Source of the DNA: Paraglomus occultum
Lineage: Eukaryota > Glomeromycota > Glomeromycetes > Paraglomerales > Paraglomeraceae
Assembly (NCBI GenBank): GCA_910592205.1
Contig: CAJVPJ010000001.1
Coordinates: forward strand, 82,026 to 146,025
Direction of reading: 5' to 3'
DNA: 64,000 nt
The notes beneath the pieces were generated by a model that was not told the DNA's origin, ran no database searches, and was given only the letters and a program-made list of their open reading frames with translations. How positions within the stretch are numbered: the first letter of the stretch is position 1; the number at the start of each line of letters is the position of its first letter. A program made the position numbers and the translations under genes. This document shows, one piece after another, positions 9,484 to 57,857 of the stretch.

Positions 9484-11656
9484 TTACCGTGGTGCGCATC
9501 TAATGATATCATCTACACGTAAAATCATCTCTGCGGCTTCCGAAGCACTGAGAACCACTTGGCGTTTCAACTTGTAGGACTCGGTAACACCTAGTTCTTG
9601 CATGTCACCGATAGATCCATTTATCATATCTAGCAAAACCCATCAAGGTGAGCAGAAGGAACACATGCCAACAATACTCGCGCGCTATCGTTCACATTAT
9701 GAGAAACTTACCAAGACCAGAAGTCGATTTACCCTCATAATGAGCTGCACGCAATCGAGCGACAAGATCAGAACTGTCATAACCGGCGTTATCTGCTAGA
9801 ATTGTAGGAATCTACTAAAAGAGACATTTAATTAGTTTCAACTTCAATTGTCTTGATAAATAGATGATATCATGATGTATTTCTTCGCTAGACCTTTCTT
9901 AAAGCTTTCGCAAATGCTTCAATAGCAACGGCTTTCTTTCCCGCCGTCTTAGCCGCCACCTCATCCACCGCTTTCGACATAAGCGTCTCTGAACATCCAC
10001 CGCCAAGTACAGTACGCGTCTCCCTCACTGTCTGCGTTAGCACACTCAATGCATCATGCAACGATCGTTCTGCTTCATCCAAAAGCTGATTTGTTGCCCC
10101 TCTTATTACAACAGTGCACGCTTCTCCAGCTGCAACTCCAGAGAATTTAATAAGCTTATCTTCTCCAATGATAATCTCTTCAATAACGTCACAATGACCG
10201 AGTTTAACTAACTCGGGATGATCAAAGGTCGATGCGATTTCACCGCCAGTAACCAAAGCCAACCGCTCGACACCATCGAAATCAGCATGTTCAATAGCCA
10301 TAATACCAGCATCGGCGAACAACTGTTCTGGCCAGTTATATATCAACTGGCGATTAACAAAACAATTAATTCCGTGAGCTTTGATCTTTTCAACCTTCTC
10401 CTTCATTTTATCGCGTTCAGCTCTTTCCAATTCAGCGAGTTTACCAGTAGCATCTACCCGAATACGGGCACCAAATATCTTAATTTTGTCTGTATCCATC
10501 GGCGTATTAGCGATAAGTATATTGGCGTTTTCGATTCGCTTTGGTTGATTGACTCCGATTTTCTTATCTAGGATAAAGCCTTCATCGAGATAGGAGTCGG
10601 TTAGTCGACCACCAACTTTTTTAATTATTTGAATGTTCTCTAGGTTCGTGCTGCCTTTTAGTCGAAGAACGGCATTGACGGCTAGTTCGGCAAAGTAATC
10701 TTTATTTTGTGATAAAACTTTGGAGCTTAGAGTTGTTCGCGCAATATTAAAAAGATCTTTTTTGAATGCTTCATTGTCACTCCTATAACAGAGAAATTGT
10801 CAGAACTAATAATCTCAATGTGTACATCATTCTGATTATTAGATACAAACCCATTATCCATGGCAGATCCTTCTAAAGCTTTAAGAGCTGCGTCACTCGC
10901 AATACGATAACCCTCAACAATAGTTTGCGGGTGGATCTTCTGATTCACTAGAATCTCTGCTTCACGTAACAGTTCTGCGGCAAGAACGCATACTGATGTT
11001 GTACCATCACCGACTTCATCATCTTGAACTTTTGAGATATCTGTAATGAATAGAGTCAAGGAAGAATACGTGTTTCTGATTATAACCACTAAAAATTTCC
11101 GGATCAGTCAAATGGATACTGACAAGAATTTTAGCGGCCGCGTTATCGAGTACGATAGACTCTAAAATCGTAGCACCATCGTTCGTAACCATGATTTCGC
11201 CTTTATTCATAGATTGAAGAATCTTGTCCTATTTTACAAAAGTTTAATTGACAATCGGATTAATTCATATAAACAAAGAGAGTCGAAGGTTAATGATCTT
11301 AATTGGATAATTTCTATCCAGACTTTCTGATTAACATGACATCATACCATTCCTTTTGGGCCCAAGGTACTTTTTACCAGATCACCGATTGCAATAGCGC
11401 CAATGAATGAGGACTGTCAAGAAATATGTCAATTACGATGTTGATAAAGCTAAACACACAATTTTTTTCTTATTATTTACCAATCGCGCATTCTCGGCGC
11501 GTTCTTCTGTGGCTTCATCTTGAAAAATTTGTACAGGAGCAAAAGCCTATACAAGTTGTAGACTTTATCGTTAATTTAACGACAAGATCGTCTCAGGAAA
11601 CTCACTAAACCAACATAAAGAATATGTTTGACTGCGAAAGTATGTCTAATTACCAT
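9484..11656 (-). CDS. CCT2: T-complex protein 1 subunit beta (CCT2), eight exons
   Basis: Subunit of the cytosolic TRiC/CCT chaperonin, which folds actin and tubulin. Exons on the minus strand: 11654-11656, 11481-11546, 11348-11413, 11120-11228, 10851-11040, 9894-10782, 9712-9811 and 9484-9629, all in phase. Diagnostic motifs are present: [22 protein letters not shown], the nucleotide-binding [11 protein letters not shown], and the beta-specific [16 protein letters not shown] with [37 protein letters not shown] and [13 protein letters not shown] follow, then a C-terminus ending [11 protein letters not shown]. The first coding exon is the start codon alone (ATG|gtaatt), giving [10 protein letters not shown], which fits the short N-terminus of the family. 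Divergent from the Crinkler gene with 309 bp between start codons. Confidence 0.95.
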
Positions 11657-11965: not shown

Positions 11966-14900
11966 ATGACCAACATCACGCTCATCTGTCACGTCCTGGG
12001 CGAGGATCCCGAGAATATATTTAGTTTCAACATCGATAAGGGATTGATGGTCAGCGAACTCAAGGAAACTATCAAGGAGAAGAGAGATAATCTATTTAGC
12101 AAGACTGATGCTGCCCTGATCAAGCTCTGGCGAGTCGACATCCCTTTCGACGTAGAAAATAATAGGTTAACGGTTCTGAAAAGTAAAAACGCCTCTATTG
12201 ACATCGCGGAGGCTCTGAACGGCACAAAGATACAACCGGGCTATGACATTGAGGAATACTTCAACGTGTCGCCGCCCAAAAAACGCATCCATATTATCGT
12301 CGAACCGCCAATTATGTATGTAATCTCGACTGTGCTATTTATCCTCACTGCATGCATCAGCTTTCCATCCATCCACTTTTGTAGCAACTAACATCAACGA
12401 CTTCTCTCTTTTTCTAGTCCTAGACAAAAGCATGGCATGAGCAGGCAACCCTCGCAAGAAGCCGATATTGAGACTGCTAAACGACAGAAGATTCAAGATG
12501 GTTAGGTTTCATTCTAGCCTTTTTTAAAAATGACAAATTAATATAAGTTGAAAATATTTTTTTTTGTTTCTAGACTACAACGAGACAGTTGCGGCTGGCC
12601 AAGCGGCGAGTGGCCCATCGACTGGCTCAATACCCCGGGATCGTATAGAAGGATCAACGCTGGTGCTAAGCAAAGAAAAGTTTCAAGACTTTCCCGTCGA
12701 CGCCTTGAACGACTATTCCTTGCTTCGTACGCAACCCGAATATGCTTACTTCGACCGCACGGGATACATATCGGTTCTCGATTCCATTCGTCATCCTGCG
12801 TTGCTCTTCCTACGACCACGGCGATTTGGAAAATCGCTGACTCTAAGCATGCTGGCCCACTTTCACGGGGTGGAGCACAGGGAAAGATATGCCGAGCTTT
12901 TCTCGGTACGGACAATTGCGTTTTCTGTCCTACACTCGTTTTGCTTATCCCGACCTTTTTCTTGCAGAATCTTGACGTCGATAAGGACGTCCAGGCTGGC
13001 AAGGTCACCCCTGGCCAATACCTTATGTTATCGCTCGATTTCAGTGCCATCAACCGCTCCGCCGACGTGAAGGTTGCGGAATATGATCTCCAACAAATGC
13101 TGAACAACTCCATCAAACAGTTCTATTCAACCTATGCACGCTACCTGGGAAACAGATCGAGCGAGGAGCTCATCGAGAGGCTTGTGAACCCGGAGAGTGC
13201 TACCTCCAGCCTTAAAGAATGTGTTAGAGTGGTCCAGGAGAAACTCCGTGCCGTGCAGAAAGATGATGACAACGCTCCACTTGCTGGCGTCAAAGGGGTG
13301 AGTTTCAAGAGGCGCTACATCCGTTCAATTGTTACTCACGCTGGAACCCTATCGACTCGTAGATCTATCTCTTGGCTGACGAATGCGACGCTTTTGGCAA
13401 CGAGTATCTCAATCCTGAAGATCGTGCTAACTGGAACTATATCCATAAGAATTCATTGCTTAAAGGCTTCTGGGGTAGTGTAAAGAGTAATTTGGGCGAG
13501 TTTCAGATCACCAAGTGTTTCATCACAGGTGTATCGCCACTTTCGATGACCGACCTTACAAGTGGCTTCAATGTCGCAAAGAACATCTCGGACAGTCCAG
13601 CTTTATCCGGTCTTTGTGGTTTCAGTCGTGAAGATGTGATCGCTGCTCTGAAGCTGCCCGAGGTCTGTGGCTTACAGAATGAAGTCGAGGATCGTTTTAA
13701 TACTATGGAGACTTTCTTCAATGGCTATCGTTTCTCTTCGATTGCCCAAGTTCCGCGAGTTTTCAACACCAACACATGCCTTGAGTATTTCCAGGTTAGC
13801 AGATCCTTTTATTGAACGCAATTGCGCTCTTATCACTATTCTTATTGCTGCTGCTTTTCATCGTCCCAGTCTTTGATCGACAAAGAGCCTCCTAAGCGAG
13901 ACAACCCCTCGAACTCGGAAGTCTCTGAGACGACTCTTAAGCTGCTCGCTTCCTCGCATATCGTGCAAGACATTCTTGAAAGGACCGCAAGCGATTCAAT
14001 AACGGACAATAAGTGGCGCACTAAGATTCCGTATTTGTCGTTGAAGGATATGTTTCGATTTGAGGACTTAGTACGGCTCACGCTTGCTCTTGTGTATTTT
14101 TTTGGTCTTTAGCTCACTTGCTTTTTCAAATACTTCATGTTTTTTTTTGCAGATGCGTGTCAGAGATAGCAAACAAGAATGGCTGAGCTACATGCGATAT
14201 ATAGGAGGTCTCACGTATGCTGATGATATGCCCAACAAGCATCTTCAATTTCCAAATTTTATCGCTTTCAAGCGTTTTGGGGCCGCTACCTTAGACCGTT
14301 ATGATCTAAATGAAGATGATATCGTCGATGCAATCGGAAAAATTGCGGCAAATGGAGACGTCTCGGGGCTGTTGAATTGCTACCAGAAGATGATGAGCCG
14401 GCGCGATGTCACTGAAGCGGATTTCAATAATTCAGAAGAAAGACACCGTGATAATATCTTTTATCCACTTCTCAAGAACCCGGTTCTATTGCAAGCCTAT
14501 CCCGAATATATTGTTACCAAGGTAAGCAAATCGAGATCCCTGAACAGAAATGCACGATTTCATTGCCCTCTTGATTAATCAGTTGTTTATGCATTCTCAG
14601 CCGTCAGGTGGAGGAGGACGGGTTGATCTGCTTATTGAGGCACCGAGCACAAACCGCGCTGCGCTCCTCGAATTCAAGGTTATCAGGATTCCTTACGTAA
14701 ACATTAATCCTGCGGGGGCATCGGGTCCCAATCAAACGTCAAATTTCTTAAAAGCATTGGCATTGAGCTACATGTCAGAAGCGGAAACCATCCTTGACCT
14801 CAAGTTTCCTCCGTACGACAAGTATCGTCCTAATCAACGTATAGGCGACTGGATTGAAACGCAGAAGCCACAATTGGTGAATTATTGGGAGAGCACTCAA

Positions 14901-15032
14901 ATCTCTGAGTTACGCCAGCGGCGCGATGTAATTGCCTATCTGGTCTTGATCATTGGTAGTCGAAAAATTCTATTCTGGCAGTTGAATGAAGATGGTAAAT
15001 CTTGGTCAGCACCTCAGCTAGTGACTGCTTAG
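11966..15032 (+). CDS. Crinkler-type protein: Ubl-like header, AAA-like ATPase, PD-(D/E)XK nuclease
   Basis: Exons 11966-12315, 12418-12500, 12574-12905, 12968-13297, 13363-13794, 13870-14070, 14153-14521 and 14601-15032 join in phase to 842 residues. Residues 1-117 form a Crinkler header: start MTNITLICHVLGEDPENIFS, central LWRVDIPF where oomycete proteins have LFLAK, and closing HIIVEPP matching the HVLVxxP end mark. A short Lys/Arg linker with possible nuclear signals (PPKKR, AKRQK) follows. From about 224 comes a P-loop domain (RPRRFGKS Walker A; LLADECDAF Walker B near 368; TGVSPLSM sensor) of the predicted AAA-ATPase family often paired with nucleases. The C-terminus has GGRVDLLIE and LLEFK (Asp 708, Glu 723, Lys 725), a PD-(D/E)XK active site. 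Crinklers of this NTPase-nuclease type are proposed to act on nuclear DNA of a host or competitor. No signal peptide is seen. The gene is clearly richer in G+C than its neighbours. Confidence 0.88.
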
Positions 15033-15292
15033 TTAGGATTTTATTGTAAAAAATAATAATTCAATGGTGCTTTAGACGACGATATCATAGTCTATATAGA
15101 GCGAGTGCGATATAGTGACACGTCGATACATATAAAGGAATTCTTGTTTCCTTCTCTAAGAGAAGTGTGGATGTTTCAACTTACCTTCCGAGGAAAGATT
15201 CATTAATAAAAAAACGCATTTTTTCTCGGATAAAATTTTGCGCGTAAGGAATAGTAAGGCATATAGGATTATCCCTCCCTATAACGACCCTC
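15033..15292. other. Left junction spacer between fungal and TGA=Trp DNA
   Basis: Contains the 3' UTR of the Crinkler gene and the transition to the segment read with TGA as Trp. No inverted repeat, target-site duplication or transposase marks a boundary. Confidence 0.4.
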
Positions 15293-15550
15293 TTATTCTT
15301 CAAGTTTCCTTTTTTTTCTTGGTGCTCGAAATGATTCCGCCAACGTCCGTTTAAGAGCTTTTTCTGACCTTTCCTCTTGGTAAATCTCATAAGTTATCTT
15401 TTCATGGTCCAGATAGTTCTTGATAGTCTGCGTGCTTTTTAGTTTGAAAACGTAAGGAGCGATTTTTTCGCCTTGCTCTTGCTTTAAAAGAGAGCGTAGA
15501 GTACTATAATCTTTAGGCTCCATAGTAGATCTAATATAGATAAGTTGCAT
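15293..15550 (-). CDS. Small Lys-rich hypothetical protein with an NLS-like tail
   Basis: Minus-strand frame of 85 residues from ATG 15550 (a second Met is at residue 10) to TAA at 15293. The sequence is hydrophilic and Lys/Glu-rich and ends PRKKRKLEE, close to the classical monopartite nuclear localisation pattern. It reads away from the TGA-coded gene that begins 114 bp to the right. It contains no TGA, so its code is not shown. Not recognised; it may be a real small gene of the inserted segment or a chance frame. Confidence 0.35.
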   Translation of the reverse strand: MQLIYIRSTMEPKDYSTLRSLLKQEQGEKIAPYVFKLKSTQTIKNYLDHEKITYEIYQEERSEKALKRTLAESFRAPRKKRKLEE

Positions 15551-15663
15551 ATTTCAATTTTATATACACGGCTACTCCTATGTAATACGCAATAAATACA
15601 ATATTATCAAAATTTTACAAAATCAGACAAACTGTGCGTAATATATATATAAAATATATATAT

Positions 15664-17433
15664 ATGGTAGACGACATAATTATGAACGAATACGAAAAAG
15701 CTCTCCATCTCCTGGAAGTGGGATGTGGTTGCGGTTGCTCGACTAAGGTGCCAAAAGAAGAATTTGCTGAACTACGAGAAGATTTTCAAGCGCTAACAAG
15801 ACCCGAACAGGATATTTTCTTAATGGCCCAACTCAAATCCTTGGATGGGGGAGCGATCAATACTAGTCGACGTCTCAAGGACAAAAATCGAGTCAATAAG
15901 AGAACTGTCTACTGCTGAAATCGTAATACCCCTATTTGTCAAAAAACCTACCTCAATATGCTTAGAATTGGCCGCAATTACTTTGAAAATATCAGAAATC
16001 ACTTGCTCAAGAATGGTCTTCTACCACGGGTCCATGGTAATGTAAAAAGAATGCCACAGTGAAAAACCAGGATGGTCATCAATATTGACGTGGCAACCGC
16101 GGTCAAGAATTTTTTGCTAAATTATACTGAAATTCATGGCTTACCCAGCCCGGTTAGAAATGTTAATCGCGTGACCCAATCCATTATCTTTCTACCAGCG
16201 GAAATGAGTTATAAATCTGTTCACCGGGATTTTTTGGCTGGTCTAGAAGAAGAGAGTAAATTACGTGCTCTCAAGTATGATGCCTTTCGCAAATTATGAC
16301 ATCAGCTTACCCCGTACATTCAAATCATGAGTCCCCGAACCGACCTATGCGATACCTGTCAGCAGTTGCGGAATGACTTGCAGTTTAAAGCCCGTAAAGA
16401 GGAAGAGGCCCAAGACTTATTAAAGAAGTATAAAGAGCATCTAGCCAAAGCCAAGTTAGAACGAAACTATTATAACAAAAATACCAAATTGGCAGAAGAA
16501 CACAGAAAACTCATCGATCAGAATTATTCTGTTGCCTCAGTGAAAGGCAAAGTATCATACTGCAGTATTGACGCAGTTACTCACTACAGTTATGACTGAG
16601 CCCAGAATGTCCATGTACCTCATTCAGACCAACAGATCGGCAAGGTGTATTACCTTAGTGCTCGCAAGGTGCATTTGTTTGGCGTCCAAAATGAAGCGGT
16701 CCGGGAGCAACTTAATTATGTGCTGGATGAGAATGAACTCCTTGGAAAAGGTCCCAACGGTACCCTAAGTCTGGTCTTTGACGGAATTAAGCAACTGAAT
16801 AAAGGTGAAAAGCACTTGAAAGTCACTTGCGACAATGCCGGTGGACAAAACAAAAACAATGCCACTATTTGGTTTTACTTGTATTTGGTAATTGCTGGTT
16901 ATTATGAAACTATTGAACTCAACTTTATGGTTCCGGGCCATACCAAATTTAAATGTGATGGTAGTTTCGGACTAATTAAAAGACTTTATCGTAATACTAC
17001 GGTAGATTGTGTCGATCACGTCGCAGACGTAGTGAAAAGGTCCAGTATTGCCGGACTAAATAAAGCTCGACGTTACAATGGCAGAGACGGCTTTCAATAT
17101 TTTGACATCATAAGTGGTTTGGAAATTTACTTTAAAAAGTTGCATGGCCTGCAGAGGTTTCAACATTTCCTCTTTACTAGTGCTAATCCCGGGGTAGTCA
17201 AAGCCCAAGAAGTCGCAAATGGTCCTTTCCAGGAATTCAAGTTACTGAAGACTAGTAAATTCGAGGCTTCAAAAATCATAGAAAAAATCAAGACTTTATC
17301 ATTTCCAGTGCTGGTACCTCCTCCGATGAAGTATGAACGACAAGAATATCTTTATAATTATATTCGCCCCTTTGTCCGAGACGAGTTTAAAGATGTTACT
17401 TGTCCAAGACCAATTTTTACTGGCAATGAATAA
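15664..17433 (+). CDS. Transposase-like protein (DUF7869-type), intact only if TGA encodes Trp
   Basis: One frame runs from ATG 15664 (or GTG 15634) to TAA 17431-17433, 589 residues, interrupted only by TGA at 15916, 16060, 16297 and 16597. Around each TGA the sequence fits Trp, for example FRKL-W-HQL before SPRTDLCDTCQQL. The N-terminus has a Cys cluster (GCGCGC) and KVPKEEFAELREDFQALT; the middle has CQKTYL and LLPRVHGNVKR. After a coiled-coil stretch near residues 235-285 comes the core, with CDNAGGQNKNN, PGHTKFKCDGSFGLIKR, a YF block and FTSANPGV. These are features of a eukaryotic transposable-element-like family I know as DUF7869; the family name is from memory. The conserved Asp residues suggest a nuclease or transposase fold, which is inference. 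No bacterial ribosome-binding site is evident. A ruined relative lies at 27265-27846. Confidence 0.75.
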
Positions 17434-17533
17434 AATATTTAGGATAAAATCAATCGCTTCCATTACTTTGTCATTCGTTAATTTGTCCTTGCTGTCATAA
17501 GTTTAATAAGATTAATCTTTCAACTAATATTGC

Positions 17534-17549
17534 TAGCTTTTTAAAGCTA
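17534..17549 (+). terminator. Small hairpin after the TGA-coded gene
   Basis: TAGCTTT and AAAGCTA form a perfect 7-bp stem with a 2-nt loop, 100 bp after the stop codon of the 15664-17433 gene and 35 bp before the next start. It lacks a following T-run, so it is only a weak terminator candidate. Confidence 0.2.
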
Positions 17550-17583
17550 AAATAATATATATACTTATATTAAAAGCAAGCCT

Positions 17584-18297
17584 ATGGTATCAATGGAAAT
17601 AACAATTTTTAAACAGGAACTAATTAGAGAATTAGGTGAAGTAAATTTCATTCCAAAACCTCCTAATGAAGAAATTTTTAGATCAGTGTTTGATAAAATT
17701 TTAGTTCACTCTTGTAGTTGACCTGAGTTTTGTGAAAAATTCCCCATTAAGGAAGTTTGGCAACACTATCTTGCTGTACAATATCTTTTTTCTCAATATT
17801 ATATTGGTTATAATAAATTTGAGAAATAGAAAGAAGTTGGGTGATTACGATCATTAGTAATTAGTTTAGAGAAAGAGAGAAATTCTTTAAAAGGAAATGT
17901 TGTTAATTTAGAAAAAGTTAATCAAGAATTAGAGCAAGAAGTAAAAGAACTGGAAACTAAAGTAGAAGAATTAGATGATGAGGTACAAATGGAGCGAGAA
18001 GAAGCTGAGAAAGCACTAAATAAAGCTGGAGAATGGAGGAAGAACCAAATGACCGAGGTTGTTTTGAAGCACGATGCAGCAATGGGCAAACTCCTAGATC
18101 GAATAGATTTATTAGAAAATAGTTTAAGTAAAAATGAAGAAATAAACCGAAGAAATTATTTAGAAACTAAAGAGTTGCCAGCCTTGCCAAAACAACAAAA
18201 AGAAAACAGACTGCAAAAGTTCAAGCAATTGGTAAGTAAAGTAAAAGAAAAAACTAAGGAAAAGTTCCAGACTTTTATTATTCAGAAAAGCAAGTAA
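17584..18297 (+). pseudogene. Coiled-coil protein in TGA=Trp code, with one TAG
   Basis: The frame from ATG 17584 to TAA 18295-18297 (237 codons) contains TGA at 17719 (CS-W-PEFCEKF) and 17842 (VG-W-LRS), which fit Trp, and one TAG at 17827 that would truncate the protein in either code. TGG also encodes Trp here (EVWQHY, GEWRKN). The N-terminal 80 residues look globular. From about residue 95 a long coiled coil runs through repeated Leu/Glu/Lys heptads (LEKVNQELEQEVKELETKVE), ending in a very basic tail (KVKEKTKEK). The function is not recognised. It sits 150 bp after the transposase-like gene and 11 bp before the next frame, as in a bacterial operon. The single TAG may be a point mutation after insertion. 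Confidence 0.55.
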
Positions 18298-18308
18298 TAT
18301 TGACATAA

Positions 18309-18958
18309 ATGAGACTAGAATATAGAGTTCTGGAAATAGCAAAGGACGATGATCAAGAATGCAATTTTTGTTTTCTAGATTTTGATGACCCAACCCTCCT
18401 TAATTTTGATACTTCTCCTGCTACTCATCAAATGGTAGTTCGTAACACTCCTGATGGTTATTCAGACATCGTGGCAAATGTAAAAAAGATTATGATAATA
18501 ATTCTCTTCCATGATGCGAGAAATGTGGTAGATTAAAAAGAAATAGAAACAGATGTTTTTGTAGTCGTTTGAAAGCCAAATCAACTAAGCCACTTTCTGA
18601 TAAAGAACTACTTTCACAAGCTTTCAATTCTCGTTTGGAAAAGAAAACTAGGGAGCTAGAAAATGAGCTATCAACTACTAAAGAGGAATTAAAAATTGAA
18701 AGAGAGGAAGTAGCCAAGTTTCAAGAAAAATCCGAAGAATGAAACAAAAGACAAAAGCAAGAGTTATTAGACAAAATTAAGCAACAAGAAGCAGAGATTG
18801 AACGTTTAAAAAAACTAACACCTCAAGAACTGGTTAATGAAATAGAATCTTATAAGGAAGAAGTGGCTCGACTAAAATCTCAATTAGAAAAATTAAATTC
18901 TCAACAGAAAGCTCAAATCGAGGTTAAAAGGTGACCTTGATCGAAAATGAGGAAGTAA
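18309..18958 (+). pseudogene. Zinc-ribbon plus coiled-coil protein in TGA=Trp code, frameshifted
   Basis: ATG 18309 opens a frame with ECNFC and FLDFDDPTLLNFD that runs to about 18485, where an A-run is followed by a change of frame. The second frame continues to TAA 18956-18958 and carries TGA at 18512, 18740, 18932 and 18938, read as LP-W-CEKCGRLKRN, SEE-W-NKRQ and KR-W-P-W-SKMRK. CNFC in the first part and CEKC plus CFC in the second could form a zinc-binding site. A coiled coil rich in Leu, Glu and Lys fills the rest. The -WPWS- C-terminus consists of TGA codons only. No function is recognised. The shift lies in a homopolymer and could be a sequencing error. Confidence 0.55.
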
Positions 18959-19490
18959 ATAATAATTAAAGAAGATACCGATACCAAGTGACGTCAAAAT
19001 GTTCACTTTGTCTGGTTTTGTTGCAGCATGCCCCATATCAGTGTGCATGGACAACTTGTACTAAGCATAGGCCTGAACAGGCGATCGGGGTAATTTTGGA
19101 ACAAGTTTGTTGTGCTGTTTACCGAGTTTACAGGGATGCTTAGAGTTTAGCTTTGCTGTTCAATCAAAAATTTCTATTACTGATTCTCAATTTTAGTTTA
19201 CAATTGTAAAATTTGGGTGACTGACTACTTTATAAACCCCACTATTTATTATATCGCAGAATATCAACTCTCTATTATCACCATAACATATGAACTGTTG
19301 TACAAAACAAAAAAAATACAGTGACTGTATTCGTCTATTAAAGAATGTATAAAAATTATTAAGTAGTGACAAAGAGGAAATACGGCTGTCGGAGTTAAGG
19401 CGGACATAGAAATATTTACAAAAAGATTATTGAATTTTGAGAACAGCCGCCATAAGAGGAGACGTATCTGAAAGGTGTGGTCGAACAGAA
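18959..19490. other. Right junction of the TGA=Trp segment and RAX2 3' UTR
   Basis: A frame ending with TAG near 19143 contains spaced Cys and His (SKCSLC, QCAWTTCTKH) but has no start codon in any sensible position, so I do not call it. The rest is AT-rich and should include the RAX2 3' UTR. No duplication or repeat that would mark an insertion edge is visible. Confidence 0.35.
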
Positions 19491-22400
19491 TTACGAGTCT
19501 TCTGGTGGGATGCTTGATACATAATTACTAGGGAAGGCTCCCTTTACAAGTCGCCCAATGCCTGCAAACATAGATGACATTGTCAGTTATTTGTAAATTT
19601 TCACTCTAAAAACACAATCTTATTTCGGTCGAAAAATTTCTTGATACCTACCATCATCAACAAACCCAATCCACCATGTAGGATCACTCCTGTCGACGAC
19701 ATAAACGGTATCTCCGACTTTGAGCCCCAGTTCACCCGCATTACGTGGCTCGAACTTATATTGAGCATAAAAGACCTGTGCGTCGTCCAAATTACCGACC
19801 AATTCGCTGAATAATCCTCCCGCTCCTCCACCAGCCACAAATTCTTGTTTCCGGTCGCTTTCTCCGTTGGCAGATTTTTCGGTGCCAGAAGACACTCGCA
19901 CTTTTTCTGAACCCGATGAATTCTTGTCGCTTTGTTGAAGTAAATCCTGTGCGAGTTTGATCTTTGACTCGAGATTGAACGTTGCCGTCGTAGTTTCTTC
20001 TGCTTCCTTTTTTAATTTTGATCGACGGTAATAAGCTATTGCCATTAATATCGCAACTATTGCAAATACCATCAATAGTGAGATGGCTGCAGCTATCAGT
20101 ATTACTAACAATACCGCGAGGGGTGCTTTTTTTTGGCGAGAGAAATAAATTAGATATTTTTTGTCAAAAATCATTTCAATCACTATTAATTATTCAGAGT
20201 TTAACTTACTTTTATTAGAGAATGATGGGGGAATATCAAAGAAGATACCCAAAATATTCCCGTTACTTCCTCCACTCTGCGAAGCTTGTAGATAAGGATG
20301 CCAGTTCTGCCCATCGAACAATGCCGTACTAACATTTCCAGCATTATTCAACTGTAAGTCTCCAACAACCATTAGTATTCGGTTCCCGTTTATTATATCA
20401 TTGCCTGGATTGTCCCCGTTAATTGGTAGGAAGGTCAACTGAGATATCCTCGAAGTTGATACTAGTCCAGTGGTGAATGAAGTAAATTTTGATCCATCGT
20501 ATTCATACAAGTATGCAGAGTTTGCGTCAGTATGTCCAGCTATCCAAATGCGTTGAGCAGAGCCGTCTATTGCGAGAGCTGAAGGTGCACCGGATAGAGA
20601 AGTGGATTCTGTAATGGGGCGCCATGTAGATTGACCATAATCGTATTCTGCAAGATAAGTCTTTTCCCCATTTACGGTTAAATTACCAGCTGCATAAAGA
20701 AGGTTTTGGTTTGACTAAAGGAGAAGGGAAAGAATGCAGTATGGGCTAGTTAATAATTGTTACGCATCATATGCTAAATCATTTTGCTACTAATATCCTG
20801 TTCTCTTACCTCGACAAAATCAATTGCAAATACTTCTCCATCAATATTTGTATTACCCAGTGCATTCCATTGATTCTTACTAGCATCAAAACTACAGACG
20901 ACTTTGCATTCGACATCGCCTGCTTTATCAAACACCCCTCCAACCAGTATCTCCTTGTTATTCTGTCTTTGTTTCACAACATTCACACTGACGCCCTCTG
21001 CACCGCTCAATTGAGGTATATCTTCAAATTCATTCGATTTTAAATTATACGCTGCAAAGCCATCGCCTTTCGGAGAGGAGAATACACCACCAATGTAAAG
21101 TATATCGTCTATAATTAGTACCGTTTGAATAGTACCATTTATGTCGCCTGATAGAGACTGAACGGTGCTGTTCTTAACGAAGGCTATGTTCTTTACAGTG
21201 CCAATCGTAAAGTTTCCCCCTATCACGGTTACTGCTTCGCCGTCAGAGTTTTCGTAAAAAGCTCCAGTGTAGACAGAAACTTGGGGGGCACTGCCATTAA
21301 TGCTCGTCGGCACAATTGGCAATGGAGTAATATCACCCTGAGGACTCAATAGACTAGCTCCAAACATTTGGACAGATGATGCGGAAAAAACGTCTCCAGA
21401 AATGTATGTAACTGCATCTCCATTTACTGTAAGTGATATAATATCTTTAATGTTTCCGTTGACAAAATTAGTCTCATTGGCCCAAGAATTCAGTCCCTCA
21501 TCCCATAATTCGAATCCAAATGTCACTTCACCATCCGTCTTTCCAGGATCATATCTCACTTGGTACGGTCCACTGACGAATATTTGATTGTTGTTGCTAA
21601 CATTGGCATAGCCTAACACATTCACAGGACCGTTCAATCCTCCGCTTACTGGCGTCCAAGCCTTCGTAGATAGCTTATATCTCGCTATATTCAACAGTGT
21701 CTGAGGATTAACAGTTCCAGTAAATGAACCACCAACAATAATTTCATCAGAAGAAACGCTGATGATACTATTCACGGGTCCGTTAAGCCCACCGTTGGAA
21801 AGAGAAACAAGTTGAGAACCGTCATATAATACTATATTAGAAAACCTCGCATCAGAGAACGTTCCGCCGATGATCAATTGGGTTTTAGAGAGCAATGCCA
21901 AAGATTCTACTTTTGCCCTGTCTGGAAAAATCCCGTTCAGACTACCCCAAGCATTGACACCTCCATTGACGTTTAACCAATACTGAAACACTCCACTTAA
22001 TGGTGGTGCACTATTTGTTCTCGTAAATGCCACGTATCCAATATCAATTTGGAGCGTGTTTTGACCTGGATTTGGTGGTACCTGTTTATCTAATTCAACC
22101 ACTACTGACGGCTTAAATGTATCGCTTGTAGCAAGTACTTTACCCTGATACAACGTAATGTCTTTAGGTCTTAAATTATTCGTTGTTATATTCAAAACTA
22201 CGCTTGTTCCCGGTAGCACGTTTGTAGTGACCGAGATTGTGGCCGCATTCTCGCAATTGGGCGTACATGGAGGGAGATGGAGCGTTACTAAATAATTACC
22301 CGTTTGAGGAACGTATGGCGTCAAAGTGACAGTGTCGTCGCTGGATGCGTACGATGCTGCGGGAATCGTGGCCTGTAAGGCTGGTTCCCAATCTCCTTGG

Positions 22401-24037
22401 ATAATTACTGGAGTCCAGGTGCCTGTCGTTGAGACGGAAGGAGTGAACGGCGTTGAAATGCAAGAAGGGAAATTTCCATACCCTGTTGCATGAACTACCA
22501 CATCTGTAGAATGAAAAAACACACATTATTGTATCAGAATGGGGGAATGGTAAAGTGTAAAACAGACATTTTCACAGCACCACAATTTCTCTTTGATTAC
22601 ATTACACTTACCGCTCTGATAGAACTGAATTTGATGAAATCCACCGCCGATTCCATTGAACTCGATCACATTCACTTGCAAAGCTGTTGTTGTAATTTGA
22701 GTAACGAATTGGAACGTTTGCGTTGTTGTATTAGACTGTTGTAGTGGACAAGCGTCAATACATGTGACGGTCGCAAGGGTATTGGGATCAATGTAAGATA
22801 GCTCGACTCTTTGATTATCAGCTGTCCATATGCTGATTGGGTGGGCAAAGAATAATATTATGAATAAGTAAAATTGAATACCTCCAAATGCCAATACTAC
22901 CATGATATTCGTCTTATTTTATGTACCTGAAAGTTTTAGTGCCCCTACCCTCAACCATTGTATTCACTATATCAACACTAGTCGGGGCAACTTGTACTGG
23001 AAATTGTATTCTCCACGAGCCGGGTTGATAATCGGCCAATAACCATGTATTTCCTGGCCCATCAGCACCTTTTGGACAAATAATTGCACTGGGGTCATCA
23101 AAACCTGGTCTACGAGATCCATTGCCAACAGTAATCTAGTAATAGAGTAGAGTTATTAGATATATATAATGAACAGTCAAGTGTACGGGTTATCTTGATT
23201 ATATCATTAACCGTATTATTAATACGCTCGCACGCGACATGTATCGCTAAAGACAGGTTATCAAACGATCTCGCCCCAAAACCATACTCTACTTACATTG
23301 GCATGTGCCATGTCCAGTGGCTGAGACGAAGTAACGTCGCCAAAACTTCCATCGGATGTAGCATCAAACTCGCCACCGAAATATACTGTATTGTTATCAC
23401 TATTCAATACGATTGTGTTAACGGGTCCGTTAAAGCCACCAAACGGTAGTGGGCTCCATTGACCATCTTTCCAAATCGCGACGGAGCCTCCATAGTTTGG
23501 TTTATCCTGAGCAGAGACATTGACAGGGGCGGTAAATGAACCTCCAACGTAGAGCGTATTAGTGGATGAGTCACACAGAAGTGAAAGTACAGGGCCATCT
23601 AGACCCGAAGAGAGGTTGGAGAAGGTAGACGTCGTTGGATTGTATAGGGCGATGTAATTTGCTGTAAGGGAAACGCCGGCGTTGTTTGTGATAGTGGTGA
23701 AGTTTCCACCAACATACACGTCTAATTCTCCTCCTCTATTCATTTGGCACATTGCATTGACAGTTTTATTTCCTTCTGTATATCCTAATAATGTAAAACT
23801 GTCTCCTTTTTTCTGTATTATGGACCCACTTGTTCCGTTATTAATTTGTTGCAGACCTCCTTCAGTATAAAAAGATATTTCATTGTATTGTCCTGCTATA
23901 CCTATTTTCTTGAGACTCTCTAAATTCACGTTAGGTAGGTCACTTGGTATACTCGAGTATACCTGCGTGGGTATTGATGAGAGGAAGAAGAGGAGGAGGA
24001 AGAGAAAGGATGTTATAGAGGGTGGTGGGGTATACAT
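19491..24037 (-). CDS. RAX2: RAX2-like cortical polarity protein with a C-terminal SH3 domain, seven exons
   Basis: Rax2 is a large secreted-domain membrane protein that marks cell poles and sites of growth in fungi. Exons: 23297-24037, 22927-23135, 22612-22832, 20810-22503, 20210-20714, 19652-20125 and 19491-19561, all in phase, 1304 residues (yeast Rax2: 1220). A signal peptide (SITSFLFLLLFFLSSIPTQV) is followed by a long ectodomain of beta-propeller-like repeats built on YVGGNFT, VGGSFT, YFGGEFD and GLNGPVN, with many N-glycosylation sites. A transmembrane helix (about 1124-1155, PLAVLLVILIAAAISLLMV and on) ends at YYRRSK. The cytoplasmic part carries a full SH3 domain near 1230-1298: FYAQYKFEPRNAGELGLKVGD, WWIGF and, on the last exon, GAFPSNYV. 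A fused SH3 is unusual for Rax2 as I know it; it could bring polarity or endocytic factors to the pole. Confidence 0.9.
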
Positions 24038-27264: not shown

Positions 27265-27846
27265 TGAATATGAAAAAGCATACGTTTTTTGGCAATTGTG
27301 GTTCCCAAAAGATTCCAAGAGAAATGTTTGCTGAATTACGTGAAGCGTTTCAAGCTCTCTCTAGATTCGAACAAGTACAAGACATATTTTAATGGCGCAG
27401 TAAATGGTGGAGAAATAACTGTCAGTCGACGTCTTAAAAAGAAAACAAGGGAACGTTTTACTGTTGAGATTACAAAACGCCACTTTGTCAGAAAACATAT
27501 CTCAATACGTTGGGAATTGAAGCATTTTCTCGAAAACTATGTCGAAATGGATTACCAAGTCCCGGTAGAAATGTCAATCGCATTATTCGATCGCTTACAC
27601 TTTTGCCAGCTGAAACGAGTTACAAGTCAGTCTATCATAATTATTGAAAACGACAGCATGTTGAAATTGTTAAAATATGATGCGTTTCGTAAGTTATGAG
27701 ATCAATTAACGTCTAATATGAGTCCAAGAACGACACGTGACAACATTTTCGGTATAAGAAGCGAGAGAGACTTACTAAAGAACATCTAAATTAGAGAGAA
27801 ACTATTACAACAAAAGTACGAAATTGGCAGTCGCTGCGTTTACAGC
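27265..27846 (+). pseudogene. Ruined second copy of the TGA-coded transposase-like gene
   Basis: Pieces in shifting frames match the gene at 15664-17433: REMFAELREAFQALSR, PLCQKTYLNTLGI, GLPSPGRNVNR, LLPAETSYKSV, KYDAFRKL, MSPRT, and RDLLKK with YYNK beyond. TGA stands at the same two positions as in the first copy, FYC-TGA-D (first copy VYC-TGA-N) and FRKL-TGA-DQL at 27697 (first copy at 16297). An internal block of about 45 codons is missing and the core with DNAGGQNKNN is absent. The shared TGAs show that both copies descend from a TGA=Trp version, and the second is much more decayed. Confidence 0.72.
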
Positions 27847-29564
27847 ACTCGACATTACGCACAACCTAAATACAATATTACACTATTTAGAAAGGCTTTG
27901 AAAGCTGTTGAGGCCCAATGTCTATAGATTTTTTTTAATTTGACTATTATAGCCGCTCTTTTATTGCGCGTCATTGAAGCTAATATAGAAAAGAAACAGT
28001 GACATCAACTTATGATGTCGTGCCGTTAATATTATTAATGGAATTGAGGAATGGGCCAAAACCACGCTTTAGTGGCAAGTATTAATTAAGTTTCTTGATT
28101 TACAGTACCATTAATTAGCAATACAATATTAATATTAAGTTTTGTGACTGTGTTCAAATTTCAATAGCAAACAAAGAAAGACTCTCCGACCCACCATATG
28201 CAACGTTATGAAACGATAGTCCCTTTCCCGGATGCAGAGACATCCTTGGTTTCGCGATCTGACGATAAGGAGCGATGGCACATAGACGAAGAACATACAA
28301 ATGAAGCTATGGTCTCGCATACTGTATCTGTACGTTACATTGGATACATGCTTGATTTATCGGTGTCTAGTATAAACTGCTAACAATTTCAGTAGTCTCC
28401 GGCAGAATTTATTATGGAAATATTAGGCATGGAGGAACTAGCAAATGTACGCAATTAATCTGTTCGCGTACCGCTTCATCTTGGATACCAAATAAATGTG
28501 CTTTACACGGACTGACATAATAATATGATTTACTGGTTGATCAGAATGGGGTACGTGAACGTTTTGCGCTCAACCGTAACTGTAATGAGCAATCAGTAAT
28601 CAGCCTTACGTCCTGTTAGAAAATGCCCGTTTACCAATTCTTCCACTAGTTAAAATTTTAGTGGGTAAAATGATCGCGAGATAAGTACCTTATCCACCAT
28701 ACTGACTTCAAATGTATAATGGATTGTCAGGGAATAGGATACGTATTTCAGAGTAAATTAGAATAACTAGTTGAAATACAATTATTTATCTCACCGAAGA
28801 CAAAAAGAATCAGTTTGTTGAAGAGACGTAACAACCCGGAATTCTTCATAGTTCAAAAAGAGACGATACTTGATTTATAAAATCGAATCCACACCCAGAC
28901 TCGTGCATAACGTAATTCCATAGTTTTGCGAATAACGTTCTGGCTAATTAGGATGTGACGTGATATTAAGAGTGAGATTATAATACTGTAGTGTACGTTA
29001 AATTCAATGTTTATTATTACTGTTATCATTAAATCGGTATCTAATTTCTTGCATTGGCTACTCCTTGAACTTGATGACGTCAAAGAAACGTTCTCGCGCA
29101 TTTATGCGAAGTAATTTAAATTTCATCTTTCGGTATGCTATTTTGAAATAGAAGCTGGGTAGCAAATTGACCAATGATTTTGCACGAATGCTCGGTTCAA
29201 CTGGTTTCAATAATTCTTTCCATTATTTTTTTTTCAAGAGAATATCTCACTACGATAAATTGTCAGTAAATCGATATCTTAAATTTTTAGGGCGGGGATG
29301 GGATTTTGCGCAAAGCACGTGTGTGTATGTAGTGTGCAGTTACTTAATCATGAGATTGACATGCATCAAAACTTAGATTGCTTGATCGTTGGTCAATGTC
29401 CATTTCTTATTCTCTCGTTTTCGCTACCAAGCTACTGCAGTACTGGCTTTGTCGGATAAACATTTATCCATAAAAAAAAGCATCATACACGTGCGACATC
29501 AAATAGCCTACAATCACCCCCCCACTCTCCGATCTTTGCACGAGTCCCGTTTTTCCCTTTCTGC
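27847..29564. other. Spacer, nothing recognised
   Basis: AT-rich spacer between the ruined element and ZC3H3. Frames at 28198-28383 and 28853-29101 have no recognisable content. A short C-run at 29517-29523 precedes the ZC3H3 start. Confidence 0.5.
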
Positions 29565-54596: not shown

Positions 54597-57368
54597 CTAT
54601 GTGTCAATATTATTGCTCAATATTATGCTTACCATCTCAATTTTTTCTCTTATTTTTTTCTTTACTTCTAGCCCATCTTCAAACAAAATATACACCTTGC
54701 TTTGTGCCTTAGTATATCCCTGCTCAGCTGCTCTTTCATATAATTCAAGTGCCTTTTGAATGTTTGCTTCTACTCCAATGCCATTTTCATAATACCGGGC
54801 AAGAAAATATTGTGCATAAACATTTCTTTCTTTGACCCTTGCTTGACAGAAGTCAATTACATAATTAATGCCAAAATTTACTCCAGCCACTTTGCTATAA
54901 TGATTACCATTTTTAACTTGCACTGACATATGTGCTTGTTTTATTGCATTCTCATATAATTCATCTGCTTTTTGTTCATCCTTTTCTGCATAATGTACAG
55001 CAAGATTATATTGAGCTTTGGCATGACCTTGTTCAGCAGCTTTATAATATAATTCAACTGCTTTTTGTTCATTTTTTTCCACTCCAGTTCCATTGGCATA
55101 ACATATAGCAAGATTATATTGTGCACTGACATGGCCTTGTTCAGCAGCTTTTTGATGTAATTCAACTGCCTTTTGTTCATCTTTTTCTACCCCAGTCCCA
55201 TTGATATAACACAAAGCAAGATTATATTGAGCATGGACAATTCCTTGTTCAGCAGCCTTTTGATACAATTCAACTGCTTTTTGATCATTTTTTTCTACTC
55301 CAATTCCATTATTATAACATGCACCAAGAGCAAACTGAGCATTGGCATGCCCTTGTTCAGCTGCTTGTTGGTACAATTCAACTGTTCTTTGTTCATTTTT
55401 TTCTACCCCAGTTTCATAAGCATAATACAAAGCAAGATTAAATTGAGCACTGGCATCTCCTTGTTCAGCAGCTTTTTTATATAATGTAACTGCTTTTTGT
55501 TCATCTTTTTCTACTCCAGTTCCATTTTTATAACATATGGCTAAATTATATTGAGCCTTGGCATCACCCTGATCAGCAGCTTTTTGATATAATGTAAATG
55601 CTTTTTGTTCATCTTTTTCTACCCCAATCCCATTGTCATAACATGCAGCAAGATTAAACTGAATGCTGGCATCTCCTTGTTCAGCAACAAGAGCAAACAA
55701 AGCACTGGCATCTCCTTGTTCAGCTGCTTTTTGATACAACTCAATTGCTTTTTGTTCATCTTCTTCTACCCCAATTCCATTATCATAACATACAGCAAGA
55801 GCAAGTAGTAGTAGAGCATCTGCATCTCCTTGATCAGTAGCCCTTTCATACCATTCAACTGCTTTTTGTTCATTTTTTTCTACTCCAATTCCATTGGCAT
55901 AACATGTGGCAAGATTATATTGAGCTTTGGCATGACCTTGTTTAGCAGCTTTATAATATAATTCAACTGCTTTTTGTTCATATTTTTCCACTCCTGTTCC
56001 ATTGGCATAACATATAGCAAGATTATATTGAGCATTGGCATCTCCTTGTGCAGCAGCTTTTTGATACCATTCAACTGCTTTTTGTTCATCTTTTTCTACA
56101 CCAGCTCCATAGTTATAACATACAGCAAGATTAAATTGAGCAGTGGCATGTCCCTGTTCTGCAGCTTGTTGATACAACTCAACTGCTTTTTGTTCATCTT
56201 TGTCTACACCAGTTCCATTATCATAACATACAGCAAGATTATATTGAGCATTGGCATCTCCTTGTTCAACAGCTTTTTGATACCATTCAACTGCTTTTTG
56301 TTCATTTTTTTCTATCCCAATTCCATTGTCATAACATGCAGCAAGAGCAAACTGAGCACTGGCATCTCCTTGTTCAGCTGCCTGTTGGTACAGTTCAACT
56401 GCTTTTTGTTCATCTATTTGTACCCCAATTCCATTATTATAACATGCAGCAAGAGCAAATTGAGCACTGACATCTCCTTGTTCAGCTGCTTGTTGGTACA
56501 ATTCAACTGCTTTTTGGTACAACTCAATTGCTTTTTGTCCATTTTTAGTTCCATTGTTATAACATACAGCTAAATTAAAGTGAGCATTGGCATGACTTTG
56601 TTCAGCAGCTTTTTGATACCATTTAACTGCGTCCTGTTCATTTTTTTCTACACCAGTTCCATTGTCATAACATACAGCAAGATTATACTGAGCATGGATG
56701 TGTCCTAGTTTAGCAGCTTTTTTATATAGTTCAACTGCTTTTTGCTCATCTTTTTCTACCCCAATTCCATTGTCATAACATACAGCTAAATTATATTGAG
56801 CATCAGCATGTCCCTGTTTGCATCCAGCAGCTTTTTGATACCATTCAACTGCTTTTTGTTCATCTTTTTCTACCCCGATTCCATTGTCATAACATGCAGC
56901 AAGAGCAAACTGAGCACTGGCATCTCCTTGTTCAGCTGCTTGTTGATACAATTCAACTGCTTTTTGATATAATTCAATTGCTTTTTGTTCATTTTTTTCT
57001 ACCCCAATTCCATTGTCATAACACACAGCAAGAGCATTGGCATCTCCTTGTGTAGCAGCCTTTTGATACCATTCAACTGCTTTTTGTTCATTTTTTTCTA
57101 CCCCAATTCCATTGTCATAGCATGCAGCAAGAGCAAATTGAGCACCGGCATGTCCTTGTTCAGCAGCTTTTTGATACAATTCGACTGCTTTTGGTTCATC
57201 TTTTTCTACTCCAATTCCATAGACATAACGTGCAGCAAGATTAAACTGAGCGATGGCATCTCCTTGTTTAGCTTTTTTCCTTCTAATACTAGGTATAAGC
57301 ACACGAGTACCACGTATAGTAAAAAAATGTTTCAGTATTGAAACGGCACTATTAAACTTTACCAACAT
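54597..57368 (-). CDS. Intronless Sel1-repeat protein of about 24 units
   Basis: Single frame of 923 residues from ATG 57368. After a short basic N-terminus (IRGTRVLIPSIRRKKAKQGD) it consists of about 24 tandem Sel1-like repeats of 36 residues, pattern GDAxAQxNLAxCYxNGxGVE-KDEQKAVELYQKAAEQ, with the usual Ala, Gly, Tyr and Leu positions. Sel1 repeats stack as helical pairs into a solenoid for protein binding. Two units are fused after loss of part of a repeat (KAIELYQKAVELYQQ appears twice), one lacks its first helix (GDANALAVCYDNG) and one is duplicated in part (ASALFALVAEQ), signs of unequal recombination. Repeats near the C-terminus are diverged. No kinase domain is attached, unlike many Sel1 proteins of arbuscular mycorrhizal fungi, where the family is very large. 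The binding partner is unknown. Confidence 0.9.
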   Translation of the reverse strand: MLVKFNSAVSILKHFFTIRGTRVLIPSIRRKKAKQGDAIAQFNLAARYVYGIGVEKDEPKAVELYQKAAEQGHAGAQFALAACYDNGIGVEKNEQKAVEWYQKAATQGDANALAVCYDNGIGVEKNEQKAIELYQKAVELYQQAAEQGDASAQFALAACYDNGIGVEKDEQKAVEWYQKAAGCKQGHADAQYNLAVCYDNGIGVEKDEQKAVELYKKAAKLGHIHAQYNLAVCYDNGTGVEKNEQDAVKWYQKAAEQSHANAHFNLAVCYNNGTKNGQKAIELYQKAVELYQQAAEQGDVSAQFALAACYNNGIGVQIDEQKAVELYQQAAEQGDASAQFALAACYDNGIGIEKNEQKAVEWYQKAVEQGDANAQYNLAVCYDNGTGVDKDEQKAVELYQQAAEQGHATAQFNLAVCYNYGAGVEKDEQKAVEWYQKAAAQGDANAQYNLAICYANGTGVEKYEQKAVELYYKAAKQGHAKAQYNLATCYANGIGVEKNEQKAVEWYERATDQGDADALLLLALAVCYDNGIGVEEDEQKAIELYQKAAEQGDASALFALVAEQGDASIQFNLAACYDNGIGVEKDEQKAFTLYQKAADQGDAKAQYNLAICYKNGTGVEKDEQKAVTLYKKAAEQGDASAQFNLALYYAYETGVEKNEQRTVELYQQAAEQGHANAQFALGACYNNGIGVEKNDQKAVELYQKAAEQGIVHAQYNLALCYINGTGVEKDEQKAVELHQKAAEQGHVSAQYNLAICYANGTGVEKNEQKAVELYYKAAEQGHAKAQYNLAVHYAEKDEQKADELYENAIKQAHMSVQVKNGNHYSKVAGVNFGINYVIDFCQARVKERNVYAQYFLARYYENGIGVEANIQKALELYERAAEQGYTKAQSKVYILFEDGLEVKKKIREKIEMVSIILSNNIDT

Positions 57369-57857
57369 CAGATCTAATACTAATGCGTTTAATTTACTGC
57401 TAATAAGAGTTCTAACCTTAACGAGAAAACGTTAGTGTAACGTTTGCGTTCTGTCACAAAATGTCAGCCTCAATAATAATTACACAGCCACAGTTTCGCC
57501 TGCTACTATAAATGTTTAATTACATCTTTAAATGTCGCGTTGTATATCGTCAATATCATCTTAATAATATTAATAATAGTTATTAAACCGAATTCTTTTT
57601 ACTTTATTATTATTGAATGGCTAACGCAATCCCTTTGCAATATCTGTTAAGTCTTTAACCACCAATGATAATATCTCGCGTACGTAATTTGCGTGTTTTA
57701 GTCTCTGCTAAAGAGACATACTACAAATCCTACGCGTCGTTATTGTCATTATGAATTAGTAAATTATATTTAAATTAATAAGTTCTATGTTAAAAGGTCT
57801 AAACTGCGCCCATACGTCAATGTCAAATCATATATTCAAGTTTCTTCTCAACCATCA
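57369..57857. other. Spacer upstream of the Sel1 gene
   Basis: 489 bp, AT-rich, holding the Sel1 gene promoter and the 3' UTR of the NADAR gene. No other feature seen. Confidence 0.5.

Follow-up and report, generated by a model that had tools for sequence, protein, structure and literature searches.

In the window analysed here, a stretch of 64,000 nucleotides from the arbuscular mycorrhizal (AM) fungus Paraglomus occultum (C1:82026-146025 of a 32.3-Mb assembly of 1,408 contigs), a segment of about 4 kb carries a transposase-like gene of family DUF7869 and three further open reading frames (ORFs B, C and D; Table 1). The initial annotation had placed three frames at 15200..18990 that read TGA as tryptophan (translation table 4, hereafter code 4), with ten in-frame TGA codons, one other internal stop and one frame shift. 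Translation with table 4 recovers these frames and reproduces the count: frame 15586-17433 contains four TGA and neither TAA nor TAG, frame 17551-17829 one TGA and a TAG at its end, frame 17830-18297 one TGA, and frame 18446-18958 five TGA, with the TGA at 18452 lying off frame, ahead of a frame shift located between 18446 and 18480. The whole segment thus contains ten TGA codons in frame, a single TAG and a single frame shift. The extent had to be amended, since a fourth frame on the opposite strand, ORF D, belongs to the same unit, the right end of which lies exactly at 19034. In the remaining frames of the segment DNA, TGA makes up 123 of 380 stops (0.324), a background from which we calculate a chance of about 1e-4 for at least ten TGA among 11 stops.

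A tblastn search of the assembly with the DUF7869 protein, in which the best 74 of 709 candidates were scored, gave 97 rows; by our own count, 31 of these have TGA as their sole stop type, nine are stop-free, six contain TAA only and 51 have mixed stops. The surroundings (up to 10 kb) of the 20 best loci, together with two stretches picked by their termini, form the family sample used below. Of these 22 loci, 21 were aligned codon by codon to the window protein, the remaining one (L041) having no DUF7869 gene. At the five tryptophan columns (residues 85, 133, 212 and 312, encoded by TGA in the window copy, and 403, encoded by TGG), the 95 cells comprise 52 TGA, 34 TGG, 3 TAG and 6 other codons, TAA and TAG together thus accounting for 3/95, while the 9,796 non-Trp cells hold 20 TGA and 57 TAA/TAG. 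In the eight loci lacking TAA and TAG, 24 TGA fall at Trp columns and one elsewhere. This test is stronger than the count in the window and requires no choice of intact copies; it upholds both the excess of TGA beyond random decay and the use of TGA for tryptophan that had been proposed. The DUF7869 gene shows selection as a code-4 gene: the median pairwise ratio of nonsynonymous to synonymous substitution rates (dN/dS) under code 4 is 0.10 for the 11 copies that are least broken (55 pairs; ten pairs with the window copy were saturated and were dropped). The fungal nuclear genome reads the standard code, TGA being found in only two of 149 fungal WD40 matches, each time alongside both TAG and TAA, the pattern of a match that runs through an intron.

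Table 1 Features of the window.
Feature	Position	Strand	Remarks
Left flank: Cpn60_TCP1 chaperonin exon, fungal	9891..10799	-	
Crinkler-like gene	11966..15032	+	Standard code, apparently spliced; directly left of D
ORF D, about 85 aa	15293..15550	-	No Trp codon, readable under both codes; C-terminal PRKKRKLEE
DUF7869 (PF25273), DDE-fold transposase-like gene	15664..17433	+	589 aa under TGA=Trp
ORF B, coiled-coil protein	17584..18297	+	TGA=Trp; broken by TAG 17827-17829
ORF C, Cys-rich N-terminus (zinc-ribbon-like by eye) and coiled coil	18309..18958	+	TGA=Trp
Right terminal inverted repeat	19001..19034	+	GTTCACTTTGTCTGGTTTTGTTGCAGCATGCCCC; element end at 19034, then ATAT
Right flank: RAX2 exons, fungal	20193..22525	-	
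Second DUF7869 copy, decayed	27297..28593		Frame shifts and inverted 3' part
Frame of 944 aa with 21 matched Sel1 repeat stretches	54600-57431	-	

The sampled loci have a common terminal sequence of 34 bp, that of the right end in the window. With up to three mismatches, a 26-mer of this terminus matches the assembly 188 times on each strand (188+188), compared to 0 for the reversed control. Complete elements with both terminal repeats were found at L038, L041 and L042; on C43 (15871-21063), C148 (2154-7866) and C174 they measure 5193, 5713 and 8236 bp and are flanked by ATAT/ATAT, AAAT/AAAT and ATCT/ATGT, i.e. the 4-bp target-site duplication (TSD) is exact in two of the three and matches at three of four bases in the third. 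Ten contigs begin 37-52 bp ahead of a terminus among the termini listed, as expected if the repeat broke the short-read assembly. Thus, the window segment is not a lone inserted fragment but belongs to a multi-copy transposon family with terminal inverted repeats (TIRs). On C771, two equal-scoring sets of element pieces lie 8,291 bp apart (termini 2037 and 10328), which may reflect either recent duplication or the way the contig was assembled.

These observations bear directly on the possibility of bacterial contamination or of an assembly chimera, the latter named by the initial annotation as the main alternative. A bacterial contig (C16, see below) is indeed present in the assembly, and the sequences within 2 kb of L041 and L042 contain short frames only, with no annotated fungal gene; contamination of Glomeromycotina assemblies by Mollicutes-related endobacteria is, moreover, described in PMC10507103. 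However, one terminal repeat is joined to many different flanks, two TSDs are exact, fungal genes stand on both sides of the window segment, a Lon-domain gene adjoins copy L035, and the Trp columns rich in TGA are likewise skipped by gene models from other AM fungi (see below), with P0014 lying on a 1.19-Mb Geosiphon contig. We therefore give this explanation almost no weight.

As had been stated, fungal genes lie on both sides of the segment; the flanks are the chaperonin and RAX2 exons. The gene directly left of D may itself be cargo of the element rather than an unrelated neighbour, a putative assignment as no left repeat was found. We take this gene to be Crinkler-like, following the initial annotation; Pfam returns a sub-threshold AAA-ATPase_like match only. 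The G+C content of the window is mostly 32-48% per kb and about 38% overall. For Paraglomeraceae, 37% is given in PMC11134847. As for the remaining element genes, the TAG that breaks ORF B in the window is also present in copy L041, and ORF C has 59 homologues at E<=0.001, one named by its source as a TolA-binding protein and the others unnamed, hypothetical or numbered.

Elements also carry genes that are written in the standard code. In L041, the terminal repeats enclose a frame in the standard code that has an AAA domain (AAA_22, E 1.5e-10) and is, from the architecture of that family, presumably Crinkler-like; those of L042 enclose a kinase domain (Pkinase, 5e-8), in the conserved part of which all Trp codons are TGG. 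In L021 and L023, DUF7869 is preceded at a distance of about 0.3 kb by a kinase frame (510 and 594 aa, respectively); the 22 Trp codons of these two frames, which were chosen as open in table 11, are TGG. A genome-wide kinase search reading through stops gave 21 matches, the strongest five of which are stop-free. For the other element genes, TGA:TGG is 14:6 in DUF7869 (four copies), 14:8 in B and C (one window-C TGA being off frame) and 11:1 in two further proteins of L042, E and F, and L023 carries a code-4 membrane-type protein of 344 aa with six TGA. Hence, as seen in two complete elements, a single element is written in two codes, combining code-4 genes with standard-code cargo. Proteins E and F are encoded at L042 6204-7754 (-); by eye, E has a C-terminal hydrophobic stretch and F is Cys-rich. 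A homologue of E, P0140, bears a HIT domain.

We next consider where such genes could be read. A search of the assembly for tRNAs with a UCA anticodon located C16, a contig of 79.4 kb of which 13.9 kb were read. It holds tRNA(UCA), other tRNAs, a tmRNA, UvrC, an HU-type protein and a methyltransferase; the stretch read has a G+C content of 32.7% and a TGA:TGG ratio of 20:10, and its code-4 genes with TGA include a kinase and an AIG1 GTPase (L051 9082-9900 (-), L054 1771-2652 (-)). Its code, its tRNA and the literature point to a relative of Mollicutes. Two earlier views, that the assembly lacks an endobacterial contig (from the missing DnaA) and that C16 is a probable mitochondrial contig, were rejected in light of this gene and tRNA content. 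The three other UCA-pattern matches yielded no tRNA with ARAGORN, and a stricter pattern gave zero matches. With a crude CCA pattern, four of five matches were fetched; the sole tRNA-Trp was also on C16, and no nuclear one was recovered. These results are relevant to the idea that UGA is read as Trp on element messengers in the fungal cytosol, by readthrough or a special tRNA. Such decoding would account for conservation of the genes in the nucleus, but the sole UCA-anticodon tRNA found with this crude pattern, which did not recover the nuclear tRNA-Trp itself, sits on C16, and the WD40 genes are free of TGA=Trp, leaving cytosolic decoding a very unlikely explanation.

Protein D also connects the elements to C16. 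Counted from its first Met, D is free of Trp in all copies but L030 and L035, both of them disrupted, and is therefore readable in both codes. Among the ten element D copies with a readable end (fragments L023+ and L031+ excluded), seven end in PRKKRK, a tail that resembles a classical nuclear localisation signal (NLS). When 150 of 291 D candidates in the assembly were scored, one was on C16: this homologue, which is without the PRKKRK tail, matches the window copy at 67% over 58 aa (E 1.5e-25) and the L022R copy at 72% over 58 aa, its best E being 1.4e-29 with L042L. Of the 60 next-best matches, 34 lie within 700 bp of a terminus (202 termini listed), where 0.5 would be expected randomly, and 33 of the 34 face inward. 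A PemK/MazF-like frame (PF02452) begins 46 bp past the D homologue on C16 (L054 2846-3755; C16:51246 onward). The slot directly upstream of such a toxin gene is the usual place of an antitoxin, and D may be descended from the antitoxin partner of a PemK/MazF-like toxin.

The relatives of DUF7869 lead in the same direction. The protein is found at 52% in a metagenome-assembled genome of Candidatus Moeniiplasma, and in the DUF7869 tree the Candidatus Moeniiplasma protein adjoins the element family. Together with tRNA(UCA) and the D homologue on C16, this makes the link to the fungus's own mollicute endobacterium strong; that part of the earlier proposal of inserted endosymbiont DNA stands, while the idea of a one-off insertion does not, given the many TIR transposon copies and the standard-code genes inside them. 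A fungal mitochondrial plasmid or mobile element would likewise yield code-4 genes, but the grouping with Moeniiplasma and the presence of a D homologue on a bacterial contig make a mitochondrial origin very unlikely. The AlphaFold model of DUF7869 (predicted local distance difference test, pLDDT, 80.9; predicted template-modelling score, pTM, 0.61) matches integrase cores structurally, and we predict an integrase-type transposase of the DDE/RNase H fold. No relative was found by tblastn of DUF7869 against plasmids or of ORF C against phages, and scans of genome-contig and viral-contig collections found no relative either.

Gene models from other AM fungi seem to have been spliced around the TGA codons, as judged by comparing proteins only. 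Across 23 annotated proteins, among them those of Ambispora, Geosiphon and Gigaspora, coverage drops to 3, 2 and 4 at residues 85, 312 and 403, compared to 12.3, 14.5 and 11.3 in their surroundings, whereas residues 133 and 212, mostly TGG in P. occultum, are covered 12 and 11 times versus 12.9 and 15.1 around them. In five more distant fungal proteins, residue 212 is covered four times and residue 312 five times. The annotated proteins P0051 of Geosiphon and P0071 of Funneliformis match both kinase domains and DUF7869, which, on protein matches, suggests the same kinase-DUF7869 neighbourhood in these two fungi.

We consider it probable that the element is a composite DNA transposon, derived from an endobacterium and established in the fungal nucleus, the transposase of which the nuclear code cannot read. 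DUF7869 would cut at the terminal repeats and insert the element at A/T-rich 4-bp sites. Together with the other code-4 genes it would be maintained in the mollicute endobacterium, this being the only compartment where a UGA tRNA and code-4 genes were found; the transposase would be made there, and element DNA would have entered the nucleus repeatedly. In the nucleus, standard-code cargo and the Trp-free D with its NLS-like tail would be readable, and D would act there. Nuclear copies, possessing no intact transposase by the standard code, would decay unless moved in trans.

Movement in trans could also be the whole story, the element multiplying in the nucleus by means of a transposase from a relative in the standard code or from a rare copy that has only TGG, with the code-4 genes as fossils. 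Annotated DUF7869 relatives exist in Gigaspora and Rhizophagus, the termini are almost invariant among those listed, and by our count 28 of 73 exact matches to the YDWAQN site have TGG, the other 45 having TGA. Against this, no long row free of TGA occurs among the best 74 of 709 candidates, and the least broken copies, with a dN/dS of about 0.1 and TGA retained where Trp is expected, indicate selection under code 4, so that we judge this account unlikely.

Alternatively, leakage may have been one-way: the element would live in endobacteria only, each nuclear copy would be an independent arrival, dead from the start, and nested insertions or recombination would have added the standard-code cargo in the nucleus. 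The closest pair among the 21 copies still has a proportion of synonymous differences (pS) of 0.285 (lowest of 207 pairs), as from separate arrivals, and many copies contain TAA or TAG. Many arrivals from a diverse pool indeed fit this pS better than one nuclear burst, recent copies possibly being collapsed in the assembly, which limits what pS says about age. On the other hand, the standard-code frame of L041 lies within repeats with a matching TSD, so that this composite appears to have been mobilised in one piece, most readable copies of D have a nuclear-type tail, and the paired sets on C771 are equal-scoring. One-way leakage is for these reasons the less plausible course, and somewhat unlikely.

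Several observations weigh against the composite transposon of endobacterial origin. C16 shows no DUF7869 match among the best 74 of 709 candidates and no terminal repeat among the termini listed, and no DnaA turned up in the assembly. The left terminal repeat of the window copy was not found, the best alignment scoring 14 versus 13 for the reversed control, and the sample of complete elements is small (three, one with an imperfect TSD). About half of the DUF7869 rows, the 51/97 with mixed stops, are decayed. Relatives outside the P. occultum assembly, including P0025 of Moeniiplasma, were compared as proteins, codon usage other than TGA fails to tell the bacterium and the fungus apart, and UGA is often a Trp codon in fungal mitochondria.

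Taken together, these results suggest that the element has lived in both fungal and endobacterial genomes. It is possible, if doubtful, that it is a living shuttle between the two, with mobility genes expressed in the endobacterium only, cargo and NLS-tailed D expressed in the nucleus, and the whole serving as a vehicle for the exchange of kinase, Crinkler and other genes between AM fungi and mollicutes. If this were true, the genetic code itself would mark where each gene is read, and the genes already known to pass between AM fungi and mollicute endobacteria would have a concrete vehicle. The gene models described above also show how gene finders conceal such genes by splicing around TGA. 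To our knowledge, this would be the first transposon with parts in two genetic codes. In the literature searched, which covered few subscription papers, DUF7869 is not mentioned, and in the portions available of work on endobacterial gene transfer, Moeniiplasma, Crinklers and transposons, Sola, Paraglomus genomes and UGA/tryptophan transposons we recognised no report of such an element.

Among known systems, the element resembles TIR DNA transposons with a DDE transposase, with which it shares terminal repeats, a TSD and a predicted DDE fold; it differs from them in its code-4 transposase gene and in combining code-4 accessory with standard-code cargo genes, and a PDB sequence search with DUF7869 found no relative. 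By predicted fold, DUF7869 is similar to retroviral integrases and Mos1/mariner. The Sola superfamily also has 4-bp TSDs, and the likeness lies in that length. Endosymbiont or organelle DNA inserted into the nucleus similarly brings foreign-code genes into a chromosome as decaying copies, but lacks the repeats and target duplications, the many copies and the host-code genes seen here. Pack-MULEs (Mutator-like elements, MULEs) and the Mutator-like elements of Rhizophagus carry or neighbour host genes such as kinases; MULE TSDs are 8-9 bp, compared to 4 bp for our element, the transposase gene of which is in another genetic code. In Rhizophagus, Mutator-like elements lie near kinase genes according to PMC8647823. 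Finally, the kinase gene in code 4 on C16 agrees with the host-derived, fungal-type kinases of Mollicutes-related endobacteria described in PMC10507103; to such host-derived genes the element adds a candidate vehicle, and with it the nuclear side of the exchange.

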